Part shown: in pieces, positions 12,702 through 19,603 of the stretch
Layout of the letters: every line of letters begins with the position of its first letter
How positions within the stretch are numbered: position 1 is the stretch's first letter
Source of the DNA: a virus
IMG/VR virus record: IMGVR_UViG_3300042731_002523
Span: 1 to 25,089 of that record
DNA: 25,089 bases
Strand: one strand, 5' to 3'
Notes under the pieces: generated by a model
Database searches by the model: none
What the model saw: only the letters and a program-made list of their open reading frames with translations
What the model was told of the DNA's origin: nothing
Program-made: the position numbers and the translations under genes

Positions 12702-13574
12702 CTATGCAACCTTCAACTTCTTTCGCAACTCACGTACCCTTGCAAGCCCAGCAATCGACCAACTATTCAATTCACCCTTCTTAACTCTATCCCAAAGTGT
12801 ATCAGAAATAACACGAGCGTACATAATCCATGTTCCTTCAGGAAATGTAATATCACTTTCTTCTTTCGTCTCATGATCAGGATCAAGTGCAGGAACTTCT
12901 ACATTATAAGTCTTTTCCTCATCAAGAATAAAGCTCTGAAGAACACGAATAGCATCAGGGACAACTTCATCATCATGCATGACATCAATACCATGCTCAT
13001 CATCTTGAAGATAATTCTCCATAAAATAATACGATGCAGCCCTAACTGTTTCCTTATCATAAATCTCACCATGGAGATCAGTTTTGTCAGGAACCAAAAC
13101 AGCAGCTGCAATAATTCTCTCCTCAGTAACACTCTTCCACACATCAGTAGTAACAACACCACTCATCTTTTCAACTTCTAGAATTCGCTGATTTTTATCT
13201 TCTTCACTCAAATACACCGCAAGTGGTGAATCAAACATACCAGCCATCTCAACACGATAAGCACAAAGAGTCTCTCGCCATACTTCCTCTTTGTGTAAAT
13301 CCTTGGTCAAATTGAATTCAGCCTCGTTATCAAAACGAAACTCATAACCCAACTTGACAACACCAACAATCTTCCCACCAACCATCACGTAATATGGATG
13401 TTCAGAAGATTTCTCAAGAGGCTCATCATAAACGATGACTCTCTTCTCATTGCTAAAAACAAGATCAGCATCATCAGACGACAACTGCAATGCATACTGG
13501 GATTGTTCTGTTTCCTCATAAAGGAAGGACTGTACAAACTCTTCGACTCTATCCATATTCATGATGATCCCCAT
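12702..13574 (-). CDS. Prohead maturation protease, XkdF-like (serine)
   Basis: 290 aa from the ATG at 13574; ATGs at 13562 and 13556 are alternatives, with GGGGA before 13562. Residues about 153-285 match the XkdF phage serine protease family: VLVPDKTDLHGEIYDKETVR, then DVMHDD with H200, RVLQSFI with S214, and FPEGTWIMYARVISDTLWDR followed by NSWSIAG near the end. H200 and S214 are the candidate catalytic residues. The enzyme would cut the scaffold and capsid proteins after assembly. About 150 N-terminal residues are an extra domain (YYVMVGGKIVGVVKLGYEF) not seen in short proteases. It follows the portal by 31 bases containing the 17-bp dyad and precedes the scaffold and capsid genes in the usual order. 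Confidence 0.8.
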   Translation of the reverse strand: MGIIMNMDRVEEFVQSFLYEETEQSQYALQLSSDDADLVFSNEKRVIVYDEPLEKSSEHPYYVMVGGKIVGVVKLGYEFRFDNEAEFNLTKDLHKEEVWRETLCAYRVEMAGMFDSPLAVYLSEEDKNQRILEVEKMSGVVTTDVWKSVTEERIIAAAVLVPDKTDLHGEIYDKETVRAASYYFMENYLQDDEHGIDVMHDDEVVPDAIRVLQSFILDEEKTYNVEVPALDPDHETKEESDITFPEGTWIMYARVISDTLWDRVKKGELNSWSIAGLARVRELRKKLKVA

Positions 13575-13605: not shown

Positions 13606-16434
13606 TCAGTCATCAGCCACAATACGCATAAACGTATTCCTCTCAACGTCATCAAGGAAGCCCTCTACGCTATCTCGATCAAGTATATGCTTCACAAAAG
13701 GAATGACAGAATCAAAATCAATAAATGACTTTGTACTCTCAATACCAGGTCCACTAAGAGCACTCGATTGACCAAGTTGGAGTTCGTAATTTTTTTCCAA
13801 CATAGTCATAGAGAAAGGTTGATCTGGTTTAATATTTGGAAGAGGCTCAGGTATTGGTTCACCAAGAACATCTTCCACAATCCTTGAAGATGTTCTAGGA
13901 GTCAAACCACCACTCCTCTCTGCAGTAGCCAACACCTGAGTCAACTCATAATTGTCTGTGACATTTGGTTTGTTTGATTTAAAGATCACAGACGATACAC
14001 CAAGACGCATGATAATAGTATTCGTCCACATTCGATCAATCGCTTTACGCTCAGGGAGAAAAATTTGTTCTTCAGCAAGCTTCCTACTTGCCTCAGCAAC
14101 AGCACGATTATAATCTTCAGAATTTCCTGAAATAAGAATCTTCCCATTATTCCTTGTAACAATCGTTCCATTCTGAGTCGTGAAACAACAAACCTGACCC
14201 TTATATGAAATCCAAGTCATCATTCCGTGTACATCACATGAATGATTGATCGGATTGGCACTGATAGTAATCACCCACTTTGGCGACCAACCTTCATCTT
14301 CAGGAATCACATATCGAGACGATGTCCGATATCCAAGACGGAAACAAAGCTCTTGGAAAAGATCCGCCAAAAACTCACTCGTCGTTGAATATATACCACT
14401 ACCTTCTCGACCACGATGACACCAAGACCCATCGCCATCCATCAGAGCACGATAAAAAATTCCGAGTTGTCTACGTGAAAGATCAAGAATCCATCGTGGA
14501 AATCTCTTATTCTTCGATCCGATACCACAATTTTCCCTAAGCCATGTCCACAACGATACATTAGAAAACTTTACAGCACCTTGATTATTCTCAATCTCTC
14601 CACTACAAGGATCGAATCCCATCTGTTGAACCACATTATCCATTCGCTCCAAAATACGTCCGACGTTCTGACTGAGGACAATCGGACCACGAATATCTGT
14701 AGTTGAACCTTCTGAAACAAAGTACCCAAGAAACTCCAAAAACAAATCCATGGAATAAGTACCAACACGTTCATGCTCTCTATCAGCACTCAACTTCCGC
14801 ATAAAATCTCGATGTACATTCTTCGACTTTATTGAATCAGATGAAGCATTAAGACGTGATACATGTGGAATAGAATATTCCTCGCGTTCCTCTCCACTCC
14901 ACTCAAGCGAAGACAACATAAACTCACGATGCCACTTCTTTATATCTTGTGCCTCAACAAAATCCCACTCACCAGAACCACGCTGAAGCATCCTATGATT
15001 TGGAGTAACAACAGCATCTATAGCTCGCCCATTTGAAAATCGAACAAGCTTACCATCGTAGTCATACACATACCGCCCAGATGGAACCTGAAACTCAAGC
15101 TCTCCTGACTCAGGTCGAACAGTCGCAATTGACTCACCATCACGAATATCATCAAATCGCTTCCATCCATCAGCAGTCAAAAACTCAGTCTCAACAGGAA
15201 CACAACGCCCCACGAATATAGGTGGTAATCTAAATGATCGCCGGATCATCTCATTGTTCATCGTGATGTAGTCTTTGAACATTGCATCAGCATGTTGGAA
15301 TTCAGTCAAAGGCTTCAAATCCATCTTCATAGCAGATGGATCTCTCATAGCGTCACCAACAGGCTCAGCCTCAATGAGCAATATAGTTGCGTAGTTCTTA
15401 TTACCCTGAATTCGCTCCTCGACAAATTCCTTCATACGATCAAGAGAACCATCAGTCACAGCAACATTCGTAGCCAACAATGCCATACCAGGCATTTGAT
15501 TGTTCTCAAACGTTGTATAATTGATTTCCTCAGCTGCACGAGAACCATAAATAGCAAAGACTCGACCAATCCACCTCGGAAGTCCATACGGGCTACGCGA
15601 ACTATACAATTTCAAATGAATAATCTCATGAGCACGTTTACCTTGAGATACACCCTTGAACTCTCCAGTTTCCGAATTTAGATCCCTCGGATCATTCCAC
15701 TCTTTAAAGTAAACAGCCTTCGCACCTGACTCACGAATCTGAACAAACCTTCTAAACTGCTTACTATCTGGAAAGATCGACATACGCCACGAACCATCTG
15801 GATTCTTCACAGCTCGTGGAACTTCATATGGAGTGTACTCATCACAAAGTTTGCAAAGACGAACAGTCCAACTCGGAAGATGTTTGAGTCCTGCAGGAAC
15901 CGATGGCTGATTGACCTTCGGAATAACTTCAATATACGCATTACCAGTCGTCTCAAGATCTTTCCGTACACGAGCACGTAACTCTTCAAACGACTCCTGT
16001 TCTTGATCGATAACACTATTCGAAAAGAAATTCTCAATAATAGAAATCTGCTTTTGAATCTCTAATGGTGTTTGCTCATTCTCACTTTGAACACCTGGTC
16101 TAGGAACAATACGATGCCCAAGCTTTTCAATATTGATTGCCATCGCATCAACCGATGGCGTCATCTCACCACATTTCTCTGGCATAGTTGCCAGCTCATA
16201 CATATTGAACGGAGGAATAATGGCATTATACTGATCGTAATTTCGAGCAAATGGATCTTCATCCAATGCCTTGCTCTGTTCACGAGCATCGGCATTATCT
16301 TGCTTCTCAACCTTCTTTGAATTTTTTGTCACAAACATCTCTGAGAATCGCTTCTTGACGACTCCCCAAAGATTAGGTTCTTCTCTGCGTCGACGAGGAG
16401 TTTGAACAACTTTGTCATCTTCAGCTTGTGCCAT
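13606..16434 (-). CDS. Portal protein interrupted by an intein
   Basis: 942 aa as translated, 581 aa after splicing; ATG at 16434 with AGGAGA upstream, the ribosome binding site lying over the terL stop. N-extein residues 1-410 and C-extein 772-942 form a PBSX-like portal: LATTGNAYIE-type motif (LETTGNAYIEVIP), HLKLYSSRSPYGLPRW, NNEMIRRSFRLPPIFVGR, then SEDYNRAVAEASRKLAEEQI. The portal forms the dodecameric ring for packaging and joins terminase and connector. The intein (C411 to N771) sits between VGR and SED in the conserved portal motif. The first extein residue after the intein is Ser. It lies directly after terL and before the protease. The join of the two exteins reads as a continuous portal sequence, so splicing must occur for function. 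Confidence 0.9.
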   Translation of the reverse strand: MAQAEDDKVVQTPRRRREEPNLWGVVKKRFSEMFVTKNSKKVEKQDNADAREQSKALDEDPFARNYDQYNAIIPPFNMYELATMPEKCGEMTPSVDAMAINIEKLGHRIVPRPGVQSENEQTPLEIQKQISIIENFFSNSVIDQEQESFEELRARVRKDLETTGNAYIEVIPKVNQPSVPAGLKHLPSWTVRLCKLCDEYTPYEVPRAVKNPDGSWRMSIFPDSKQFRRFVQIRESGAKAVYFKEWNDPRDLNSETGEFKGVSQGKRAHEIIHLKLYSSRSPYGLPRWIGRVFAIYGSRAAEEINYTTFENNQMPGMALLATNVAVTDGSLDRMKEFVEERIQGNKNYATILLIEAEPVGDAMRDPSAMKMDLKPLTEFQHADAMFKDYITMNNEMIRRSFRLPPIFVGRCVPVETEFLTADGWKRFDDIRDGESIATVRPESGELEFQVPSGRYVYDYDGKLVRFSNGRAIDAVVTPNHRMLQRGSGEWDFVEAQDIKKWHREFMLSSLEWSGEEREEYSIPHVSRLNASSDSIKSKNVHRDFMRKLSADREHERVGTYSMDLFLEFLGYFVSEGSTTDIRGPIVLSQNVGRILERMDNVVQQMGFDPCSGEIENNQGAVKFSNVSLWTWLRENCGIGSKNKRFPRWILDLSRRQLGIFYRALMDGDGSWCHRGREGSGIYSTTSEFLADLFQELCFRLGYRTSSRYVIPEDEGWSPKWVITISANPINHSCDVHGMMTWISYKGQVCCFTTQNGTIVTRNNGKILISGNSEDYNRAVAEASRKLAEEQIFLPERKAIDRMWTNTIIMRLGVSSVIFKSNKPNVTDNYELTQVLATAERSGGLTPRTSSRIVEDVLGEPIPEPLPNIKPDQPFSMTMLEKNYELQLGQSSALSGPGIESTKSFIDFDSVIPFVKHILDRDSVEGFLDDVERNTFMRIVADD
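14122..15204 (-). mobile_element. Intein with LAGLIDADG homing endonuclease, in the portal gene
   Basis: 361 residues, portal residues 411-771. The splicing block A begins with Cys (CVPVETEFLTADGWKRFDDI). Block B is VVTPNHRML, with the Thr-x-x-His. Block F is about 746-763 (GQVCCFTTQNGTIVTRNNG). Block G ends ISGN, followed by Ser. The penultimate residue is Gly instead of the usual His. Two LAGLIDADG-type motifs are seen, FLEFLGYFVSEGS (acid E575) and IFYRALMDGDGS (D666), about 90 residues apart, so the endonuclease looks intact. The element would cut intein-less portal genes at the VGR-SED site. Confidence 0.88.
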
Positions 16435-16443
16435 CGATATCTC

Positions 16444-18051
16444 CTAAGACCCGAATACACGTGGTTCTTCACGTCGCTTACCACGACGTCTTCCACCACG
16501 CATAGCTCCCCACACAGCAATGTAAAGAGCATCAAACAAATCCTTCAATTTCACATGTGGAAAACCGGTCAATTGACCCTCGAGTTTATCCGATCGACCC
16601 TTACGATGAAACACCTTACCTTTTTCATAATAGTCTTGAAATGCAATAGCTCGCGTTATCTTGTCTTCTGTCGTCCAAACAGGATGCGTTCTAATGTCAG
16701 GAAACTCTTCAGCTGCTGTCGATTCTAACACAGCTTGGTAAGCATTTGCCTCAACATATGAACGTACTGGGTCCCATGTATCAAACATCTCAACCAACAA
16801 CTCTTTCTGTCGGTTGAACGTGAATCTACCTGAAATATGATCAAGAACATAAATTTCGAAAATTTTAGGAATAATACCAACAACTACAATTGCAAATTCA
16901 TCAGCAGACGATTTGACAGAAGCGGCAAGGTCAACCCCCATCCAAACCATCATACCCAACCGGTTGACCAATGCCGCTGGTTCATCATCATAATACCTAA
17001 ACCAATCAGCTGTAAAGTAATCACCTCTAAGAAACTCAACACGATTCTGATACTGTGATTCAAAATCACCTCGAGTCATACCCTCACGTCGAGTAAGAAC
17101 CTCTTCAACCGAAAATCCAACTGGGTCCCAAACTGTAGCATTCTCAGGAAGACTAAATGAACCATCGTCATTCTCGATAAGATCTACTGCTTCACCAGTA
17201 TCCAAACCAAAAACACCTGGCATAATGAAAAATGAATTACGGAAGTTCGGATCTTGTTCAATCAGATAACCATACAAATCCTCTGGGTGATAGCGAGTAC
17301 CAAGCACTCGCATTTCACCACCATACTTAAGACATGGAAGTAATGACTTATAAAAAAATCGTCTAACAGTCTCACGACTTGCTTCAGTTTTAGAATTTCG
17401 CTCTTCAACAAGATCATCACAAATAATCAAATCAAAGTGCTTTGAAACAATAGCACCATCAACACCACCAATATGAAATGAATGTTCCTTCTGACCTGGT
17501 TCACGGCCATAAATACTCGCAGCTGTTTCGTCCCATTTATCTCCAACAAGACGACCAAAAATTTGCATTTCTTCCAACTTCTCAAGATTACCCTTGACAG
17601 CTGCAAGAAATGACTTTGCCTGATCTCCAGTACGTGATGCAATGAGTACATTGATTTGACGATCCTGTAGTGCCCGCATAATGACATAACAAATGTCACA
17701 TACAGTCGACTTACCAGAACCGCGCGGTCCTAATAGACCTGCGTATCTTTTTCCCTTCTGTTCTACCTGTTCAAAGAACTTAATGTAGGCAAGATGATGA
17801 GACCGAACTTCCAAACCAAGCAGTCGCATAAGAATATCGATACGACTATTCTCAAGAATCTCTCTACGGTAAATCTCCTTTTGTAGAACATCCATCTGCA
17901 GAACTGCAGAGATAAGTTCATCTTTACGACGTGGTTTTGCATTTGACGAAGCAAGATGTTCCGCATATGAAGACGTGGCTACATCATAACTGCTCTCCGA
18001 CTTCTTCGAAATCCGCTTCGATGATCTCTTCTGACCCCTCCTCTTTGGCAT
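16444..18051 (-). CDS. Terminase large subunit
   Basis: 535 aa from the ATG at 18051, chosen because GAGGG lies five bases upstream; an in-frame GTG at 18069 would add six residues. It is the ATP-driven packaging motor and nuclease. The ATPase shows Walker A (GPRGSGKS, about residues 107-115) and Walker B (LIICDD, about 209-214), followed by a Glu-containing stretch (LVEE). The nuclease domain shows GVDLAAS (about D374), YVEANAYQ and KDLFDAL (D504 and D507). The N terminus is a basic tail (PKRRGQKRSSKRISKK). It overlaps the end of the small-subunit gene by 68 bases and is directly followed by the portal. Confidence 0.9.
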   Translation of the reverse strand: MPKRRGQKRSSKRISKKSESSYDVATSSYAEHLASSNAKPRRKDELISAVLQMDVLQKEIYRREILENSRIDILMRLLGLEVRSHHLAYIKFFEQVEQKGKRYAGLLGPRGSGKSTVCDICYVIMRALQDRQINVLIASRTGDQAKSFLAAVKGNLEKLEEMQIFGRLVGDKWDETAASIYGREPGQKEHSFHIGGVDGAIVSKHFDLIICDDLVEERNSKTEASRETVRRFFYKSLLPCLKYGGEMRVLGTRYHPEDLYGYLIEQDPNFRNSFFIMPGVFGLDTGEAVDLIENDDGSFSLPENATVWDPVGFSVEEVLTRREGMTRGDFESQYQNRVEFLRGDYFTADWFRYYDDEPAALVNRLGMMVWMGVDLAASVKSSADEFAIVVVGIIPKIFEIYVLDHISGRFTFNRQKELLVEMFDTWDPVRSYVEANAYQAVLESTAAEEFPDIRTHPVWTTEDKITRAIAFQDYYEKGKVFHRKGRSDKLEGQLTGFPHVKLKDLFDALYIAVWGAMRGGRRRGKRREEPRVFGS

Positions 18052-18709
18052 ATTGACCCTCGACCGCACGTTTCAAAATATTACTATAAGCCGGTGGCAA
18101 TTGTGGATTGCCTTGCATTACGTTTTGGAAAAACGACATTCGCTCTTCATACAATTGTCGAATTTCTTCATTTGGAAGTGTAACAAGATTAATCTCACCA
18201 AGAACTCTGACCTCTTTTGCTCGCTTGTCAATAATGCCAAGTTCTTGACCAACTCTCAACATATCTTCAGTCAATTTCGCTTTTGCCTTGATAGCCCCAA
18301 CAACACCAGATTTTCTTGGATCGTCTTCCATATGTAATCTAGTGAACTGGTCAAGTTCTCTAATATATTGTTCAGTCCGCAACATGTACAAATAGTACCG
18401 ATGGGCAGTTCCCATATTGGTGAACTTTGCACCTTCTGTCTCGAGCAACAACATTTCAACTTCATCGTAAATCTTGTCATCAATACCTAATCGTTCTTTG
18501 ATTTCCTCACGAGAAAGACCTTCAGCTAGAAAAGCACGCATATACGTAGTTGCATTCCTAATCCAACGCTCGCGTAAGTACTGCTGTCTGTTCGGTTCAT
18601 ACTGATTGAGAGGTGGAAGTTCATCACTTGGATAACGTTTTCTCTCATCAGTTTTAGGAACAGAAGCCACAACTTTCTTTTGTTCTTCGATTGGTTTTCT
18701 AACACGCAT
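17984..18709 (-). CDS. Terminase small subunit-like protein
   Basis: 241 aa from the ATG at 18709; a longer start at 18754 (MMIEFD) would run through a promoter-like region. No Shine-Dalgarno precedes either ATG. Residues about 59-88 (AFLAEGLSREEIKERLGIDD) are a helix-turn-helix of the kind that recognises the packaging site; residues about 90-200 are helical (YRYY-like NMGTAHRYYLYMLRTEQY, then KAKLTEDMLRVGQELGIID), fitting oligomerisation. The acidic C terminus (EEGSEEIIEADFEEVGEQL) may contact the large subunit. The assignment rests on the helix-turn-helix, length and location before terL; it is the first gene of the leftward operon. Confidence 0.72.
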   Translation of the reverse strand: MRVRKPIEEQKKVVASVPKTDERKRYPSDELPPLNQYEPNRQQYLRERWIRNATTYMRAFLAEGLSREEIKERLGIDDKIYDEVEMLLLETEGAKFTNMGTAHRYYLYMLRTEQYIRELDQFTRLHMEDDPRKSGVVGAIKAKAKLTEDMLRVGQELGIIDKRAKEVRVLGEINLVTLPNEEIRQLYEERMSFFQNVMQGNPQLPPAYSNILKRAVEGQYAKEEGSEEIIEADFEEVGEQL

Positions 18710-18769: not shown

Positions 18770-19603
18770 ATGAAGCCTCTATTGAAATGGGTTGGATCAA
18801 AGCGATGGATCTCTCGTCGCATTGCAAATATAGTCCGCGAAGACATACTAACTAGTGGTAAATATCACGAACCTTTTGTCGGAGCTGGCTCAGTATTATT
18901 CGAATTATCAGATCTCGAAAACAATAAAATTGCTTCAGATATTGTCGAACCACTAATTGAAACCTATAGAGCCATTCAACAAAATCCAATTGGAGTATGG
19001 GGTCAATTACACAAACTCAATGAGAATGGTCTAAACAAAGAAGAATACAATTTACGTCGTGATATCTTCAACAAAGGGCAACAACATTCACTAGAAGAAT
19101 GGATTGCTCTGTTCATATATCTCAACCACTCATGTTACAACGCACTATGGCGAACAAACAAAGATGGAGACTTCAATGTCCCATTCGGAGACCATGCTAA
19201 TCTACGCCTACCAGATCAAGCTGACTTTCTCCGAGCAAGCCAATCACTACAAAACACATCATTCACACTCATCTCTCACCCAAGACAAGTTCTCGTCAAA
19301 CTGTTTAGATCTGTCAAAGGAGGGGATGTAGTATTTGTCGATCCACCGTATCTCAATACATTCGATGGATACGACGAATATACACACAACACTACTAAAA
19401 GCTTTCATGAAGAACTCGCATGCATTCTATGGAATCTCAACATCCGTGGAGCCACCATCATCGCAATGAACTCAAATTGTGATGAGATACAAAAGTGGTA
19501 TGGTGCATTCTGTGATATTGAAATTATAAATCGACATCAAAATGTCTCGGGCACAAATAGTGGGAGGGGGACATGGGATCAAGTTCTCGCGATAGCAAGA
19601 TGA
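18770..19603 (+). CDS. dam: DNA adenine methylase (D12 class, Dam-like)
   Basis: 277 aa. Start is firm because MKPLLKWVGSKRW is the normal family beginning. It transfers methyl from S-adenosylmethionine to adenine N6, probably in GATC. Motifs: KWVGSKR (6-12) and EPFVGAGSV (34-42) bind the cofactor, and DPPY (191-194) is the catalytic site. There is a target-recognition region between about 60 and 160. The likely specificity is GATC by family; this is not proved. It is the first gene of the rightward block, divergent from the terminase operon. It overlaps the next gene by 31 bases or by 4, depending on that gene's start. Confidence 0.9.
   Translation: MKPLLKWVGSKRWISRRIANIVREDILTSGKYHEPFVGAGSVLFELSDLENNKIASDIVEPLIETYRAIQQNPIGVWGQLHKLNENGLNKEEYNLRRDIFNKGQQHSLEEWIALFIYLNHSCYNALWRTNKDGDFNVPFGDHANLRLPDQADFLRASQSLQNTSFTLISHPRQVLVKLFRSVKGGDVVFVDPPYLNTFDGYDEYTHNTTKSFHEELACILWNLNIRGATIIAMNSNCDEIQKWYGAFCDIEIINRHQNVSGTNSGRGTWDQVLAIAR

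Follow-up and report, generated by a model that had tools for sequence, protein, structure and literature searches.

The portal gene of IMG/VR virus record IMGVR_UViG_3300042731_002523 (the whole stretch analysed, 25,089 bases, is called the window here) is interrupted by an insert that, judged from its sequence, is very probably a class 1 intein able to splice and to move, with a homing endonuclease of the LAGLIDADG type. It belongs to a lineage that resides mostly in portals and appears to have entered the same loop of these proteins repeatedly. The window intein itself adds to the known portal inteins; the recurrent targeting of the loop is the more interesting and less expected part.

Results

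The precursor of the portal and the intein is encoded by a 942-amino acid open reading frame on the minus strand (13606..16434), which starts with ATG and has no internal stop. Its upstream neighbour is the terminase large subunit (TerL) gene (16444..18069, minus strand; PHROG 38, E=3e-70) and its downstream neighbour is an XkdF-type head protease gene (12702..13574, minus strand; Pfam Peptidase_S78_2, E=1.8e-19), neighbours expected of a portal gene of the PBSX/HK97-like kind. On the opposite strand, a D12-class N6-adenine DNA methyltransferase gene (18770-19603, plus strand) adjoins the packaging genes. At three other loci (L002:2709-4988, L005:2804-6091 and L026:1289-3631) the portal frame extends into a protease-like C-terminal part (VGGAVLVPG...DLQGD), unlike in the window, where the protease is encoded separately.

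The precursor matches the PHROG 12 portal profile (E=1e-22) and Pfam PF04860 (above cutoff), and its match to TIGR01540 stays below that profile's own cutoff. Every match to Pfam Phage_portal, PHROG 12 portal and TIGR01540 portal_PBSX ends at residue 409, and a LAGLIDADG_3 match falls inside the insert. Portal profiles and alignment with intein-free portals assign residues 1-410, ending in ...LPPIFVGR, to the N-extein (15205..16434, minus strand); the class 1 intein with its LAGLIDADG endonuclease follows (361 amino acids, residues 411-771; 14122..15204, minus strand), and then the C-extein, SEDYNRA..., of 171 amino acids plus the stop codon (13606..14121, minus strand). The exteins (1-410 and 772-942) were joined in silico solely as an empty-site test. 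The TIGR01540 match then crossed the joint, spanning 72-446, and rose from 113 to 129 bits.

The junction, VGR↓C...GN↓SEDYNRA (arrows mark the ends of the intein or the insertion point), was fixed by aligning the precursor with portals of other viral contigs that have no intein, where the insert shows as a clean gap. Such portals, with 59-62% identity to the exteins, are without the insert precisely at VG[R/Y]↓[S/A]xDY, as in VGY↓SDDYNRA (L006, 62%) and VGR↓AEDYNRA (L008, 59%); the intein-free L026 and L003 read IGR↓SDDYNRA and VGA↓SEDYTKA. The genome scan yielded two intein-free portals only. Another contig, which carries both L005 and L007, has a 364-amino acid intein at the identical residue that is 55% identical to the window intein (full-length tblastn E=8e-129), and L077, L078 and L079 have inteins at the window's site that are 42-43% identical. 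Since relatives lack the insert exactly at the joint and another virus has a 55%-identical intein there, this is a real insertion. At the level of sequence, chance is excluded as the origin of the insert pattern by the same-site homologue together with the 76 family members described below.

A prior sequence-only reading had placed an intein of 361 residues in the portal gene, with a spliced length of 581. Both figures are correct, and the placement is borne out by the open 942-residue frame, the intein-free relatives and the same-site homologue. The claim that the exteins rejoin as a normal portal motif (VGR, then SEDYNRA) agrees with the intein-free relatives and with the TIGR01540 match across the joint. 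That reading had proposed aligning the portals of relatives in search of intein-free alleles at VGR-SED, which were found, and would have been overturned had relatives shown the 361 residues as ordinary portal sequence; portals that lack the insert are complete.

All splicing blocks are on the minus strand. Block A (CVPVETEFLTADG; 15166..15204) supplies the nucleophile Cys1, present in 76/76 homologues. Block B (NGRAIDAVVTPNHRML; 14986..15033) contains the TxxH motif as T67-P-N-H70, with Thr67 in 73 and His70 in all of the 76. Block F (KGQVCCFTTQNGTIVT; 14155..14202) has Cys340 at F:4 (Cys in 75/76), and block G (GKILISGN; 14122..14145) ends in Gly360-Asn361, followed by Ser+1 (Gly in 66/76, Asn in 74/76). 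The +1 residue is Ser, Thr or Cys at all 78 loci counted. The class 1 residues (C1, TxxH, N361 and S+1) are thus complete. The penultimate His, typical for class 1 and not required, is replaced by Gly360; its lack does not exclude class 1, because known splicing inteins lack it too, and it is a family trait, since Gly360 is shared by 66 of the 76 dereplicated homologues. The class 1 intein of mycobacteriophage Bethlehem gp51 (RDF) has a Gly-Asn end and splices, and changing its Gly to His slows splicing (PMC5050341). Given this precedent and the frequency of Gly in the family, the Gly-Asn end is best read as the family norm and no defect. The Cys at F:4 raised the possibility of a class 3 intein, which was rejected: Trp at B:12 and Thr at G:5 are absent (Met72 and Ser359) and Cys1 is present. 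A degenerate intein was also discarded, as there is no stop and no catalytic residue is lost.

The endonuclease domain has LAGLIDADG motif 1 (LGYFVSEGST; 14701..14730, minus strand), with the acidic Glu165 (E or D in 71/76 homologues), and motif 2 (YRALMDGDGSW; 14422..14454, minus strand), with Asp258 (D or E in 74/76) and the LAGLIDADG_3 match. The intein family profile matches the solved homing endonucleases PI-PkoII (E=3e-16), PI-SceI and I-DmoI. The domain is under purifying selection (dN ~0.43, with dS saturated), and its identity of 58% is the same as that of the N-terminal splicing domain. The sequence-only reading had listed blocks A, B, F and G, two LAGLIDADG motifs and final residues Gly-Asn instead of His-Asn, and all were found as described; the homing endonuclease it proposed is upheld by the two motifs with both acidic residues and by the PI-PkoII match.

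The trees of the inteins and of their hosts disagree. The window intein has that of L005 as its sister (99% SH-aLRT), but the extein tree joins each of the two portals to an intein-free one, the window portal to L006 and that of L007 (L005) to L026, with high support in both cases. A clade uniting the portals of the two carriers is rejected by the AU test (p=3e-4), as is one of all five site-a carriers (p=1.3e-6). Between the window and L005, the exteins are 47% identical and the inteins 55%. Because the extein and intein trees conflict (AU p=3e-4), the sequences indicate that the intein moves independently of the portal, which fits homing; part of the patchy distribution could reflect losses in lines descended from a carrier. 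The 30 bp upstream of the intein (15205..15234, minus strand), presumed to be the left half of the homing site, match L005 at 27/30 nucleotides and are the ten most similar codons between the two exteins. The same codon is used at 8/9 shared residues versus 0.47 elsewhere (P=0.012, a single weak test). This similarity is the trace expected of co-conversion during homing, and the flank may be a co-conversion tract; selection on the cleavage site would look alike. The contig with L026, the intein-free partner of the L005 portal in the tree, belongs to a MAG that bears the label 'archaeon isolate H03M_Hermod_104'; these viruses may infect archaea, or the contig may be misbinned.

The family was gathered by an intein-profile search that started from the portal intein; the best 80 of 138 loci were kept, and the dereplicated family has 76 members. 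Portals host 58 of these 76, an upper estimate of their share given the portal-intein start and the best 80 of 138 loci, followed by nucleotidyltransferases (9), RNA polymerase beta subunit-like genes (4, read by eye), terminases (3), a helicase and one unassigned host. The RNA polymerase-like relatives (L102, L116, L126 and L127) are in long open reading frames with the motif LNPTGIP↓SRINLGQVLE and probably come from large phages. A search of a plasmid collection found one radical-SAM intein. The portal hosts fall in six PHROG families (12, 2662, 9232, 10963, 1216, of the SU10 type, and 37955). Portal identity was profile-tested for ~33 loci, with 28 clear matches; for L025, L047, L051, L091 and L097, with a weak or no portal match, it rests on the junction motif and kinship.

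All but one of the portal inteins (57/58) are at three neighbouring sites within ~10 residues, in a loop before a long helix; site labels were assigned by eye from the junction sequences. Site a is G-x↓[S/T], as in the window, and in some families is shifted downstream by as many as two residues. Site b, NRA↓[T/S]A, is about six residues past site a, and site c, NRAVAF↓T, three residues past site b (L095). Inteins group by site in the tree, with 4 changes for site b versus 26 when shuffled and 3 versus 15 for site a, so that site a was apparently entered about three times. One portal (L044:1921-4032) is occupied at both site a and site b, by complete inteins that only five extein residues (TSNRA) separate. 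They belong to different clades of the intein tree, which indicates that this loop was invaded twice and led us to reject a tandem duplication. Another portal (L065:748-5727) has, besides a site-a intein, a second unrelated-looking intein-like insert near its N-terminus, which by eye starts with Ser and ends with His-Asn. In a portal-like open reading frame with an intein at NRA↓SS (L047:1789-5700), the frame continues into a DNA topoisomerase IB domain.

In a model of the precursor, the intein separates a helix (residues 384-400) from a long helix (774-810), which RLPPIFVGR-SED would join after splicing, and a weak profile alignment puts the HK97 portal residues VPPHLVG-D304 at the junction. 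In the SPP1 portal, the tunnel loop follows stem helix alpha5 and precedes long helix alpha6, and mutations in this loop disrupt DNA packaging (PMC9701221); in the P23-45 portal, the channel is narrowest at the loops (PMC7234808). On the basis of the secondary-structure order and the weak HK97 alignment, we infer that the intein is in or beside the portal tunnel loop. The P23-45 portal gave no usable profile alignment as a map of the tunnel loop, and a PDB sequence search with the portal family found nothing at E 0.01. Structure comparison relates the precursor model to portals (HK97 and GTA, VIA Z ~16) and, over different residues, to the endonuclease parts of PI-PkoII and TliVMA (Z 12.5); Foldseek also matched it to PI-SceI. 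Confidence in the models is low (mean pLDDT 50 for the intein alone and 56 for the precursor), worst around the junction, and the model of the intein alone (mean pLDDT 50) carries none of the claims made here.

Discussion

The residues suggest the following pathway. The 942-amino acid precursor would be translated, Cys1 would attack the junction at Arg410, the chain would pass to Ser+1, and Asn361 would cyclise without a penultimate His, releasing a free 361-amino acid intein and a 581-amino acid portal subunit. Unspliced subunits should form no working channel, because the insert sits in the loop that links the stem helix to the long one, the inferred tunnel loop, and splicing should precede ring function, as twelve unspliced copies would put twelve 361-amino acid bodies at the channel. 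Head assembly or packaging is therefore likely to require splicing. During co-infection, the endonuclease would cut intein-free portal alleles around VGR↓SED and repair of the cut allele would copy the intein in; the outcome of such movement is seen in the tree conflict.

Nothing was found in favour of reading the insert as a normal portal domain peculiar to this lineage and no intein, and the probability of this is negligible; complete portals without the insert in the alignment, together with homologous inserts that have the same end residues in nucleotidyltransferase, terminase and other non-portal genes, refute it in practice. An intein that splices and whose endonuclease no longer cuts, so that it is resident and vertically inherited, is a minority possibility, unlikely but the strongest of the alternatives. 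In its favour, the 55% identity of the sister inteins means that the last transfer was not recent; on the other hand, both acidic residues are kept, the endonuclease is as conserved as the N-terminal splicing domain, and the carriers' portals do not form a clade (AU p=1.3e-6, five site-a carriers). It is more doubtful still that portal assembly is governed by slow or conditional splicing as a regulatory switch, in which Cys1, Cys339 and Cys340 would sense the redox state. The replacement of His by Gly and the two adjacent cysteines in block F would suit such a switch, and some inteins (DnaB, SufB) are redox-responsive (PMC6195587), but in the sole tested phage Gly intein the Gly form splices faster than the His form (PMC5050341), and close portal relatives work without an intein, so no switch is needed.

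Active-site intein hotspots are known in polymerases and terminases. It is probable that the intein of the window represents a portal-specialised lineage that targets the tunnel loop at three sites within ~10 residues, crosses very different portal families and can occupy one portal twice. If so, the portal tunnel loop is the structural-gene counterpart of those hotspots, and mobile inteins would have a favoured home in a structural protein of the virion instead of a nucleic-acid enzyme. That inteins have inserted here repeatedly and independently, in several families of portals, suggests that this is where the portal is most sensitive, and points to one short loop as its least changeable part. 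Two questions become testable: does portal assembly have to wait until splicing is done, and by what route does one family of inteins arrive at the same loop in portals with little sequence in common? Text searches of the literature, with most subscription journals outside their scope, returned no report of portal inteins at this loop.

Portal inteins and class 1 inteins ending in Gly-Asn were both published in 2016 from mycobacteriophages (PMC5050341). Kelley et al. described six portal inteins in cluster C1 mycobacteriophages, with a patchy distribution among related phages (PMC5050341). These PORT inteins resemble the window intein in residing in portal genes and in being patchy among related phages. 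In the C1 portals of JayJay (L033) and Colt (L034), which are kin of that group by portal similarity and may not be among the six, the inteins are elsewhere, at HW↓CRLFY and KFS↓TLN, and the C1 portals belong to a different, larger family than the window portal. Since the insertion sites differ, the window intein was rejected as the same element. The portal intein of Gordonia phages Woes and Hail2Pitt (L032) also ends in Gly-Asn, is 24% identical over its whole length and has intein-free siblings; its portal is of the Mu type by appearance, and its site (VEYLE↓SQMRGADF, by eye) is unlike that of the window. The nucleotidyltransferase inteins of cluster C1 and other phages, 28% identical to that of the window, are among its nearest full-length relatives in isolated phages. 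In metagenomes, too, such inteins belong to the same family as that of the window; they have another host gene and site and form a separate clade (99*). The Bethlehem gp51 intein is likewise of class 1 with a Gly-Asn end, in a different host protein. PI-PkoII, PI-SceI and TliVMA, whose hosts are cellular (archaeal and yeast), have the same LAGLIDADG endonuclease fold as the window intein.
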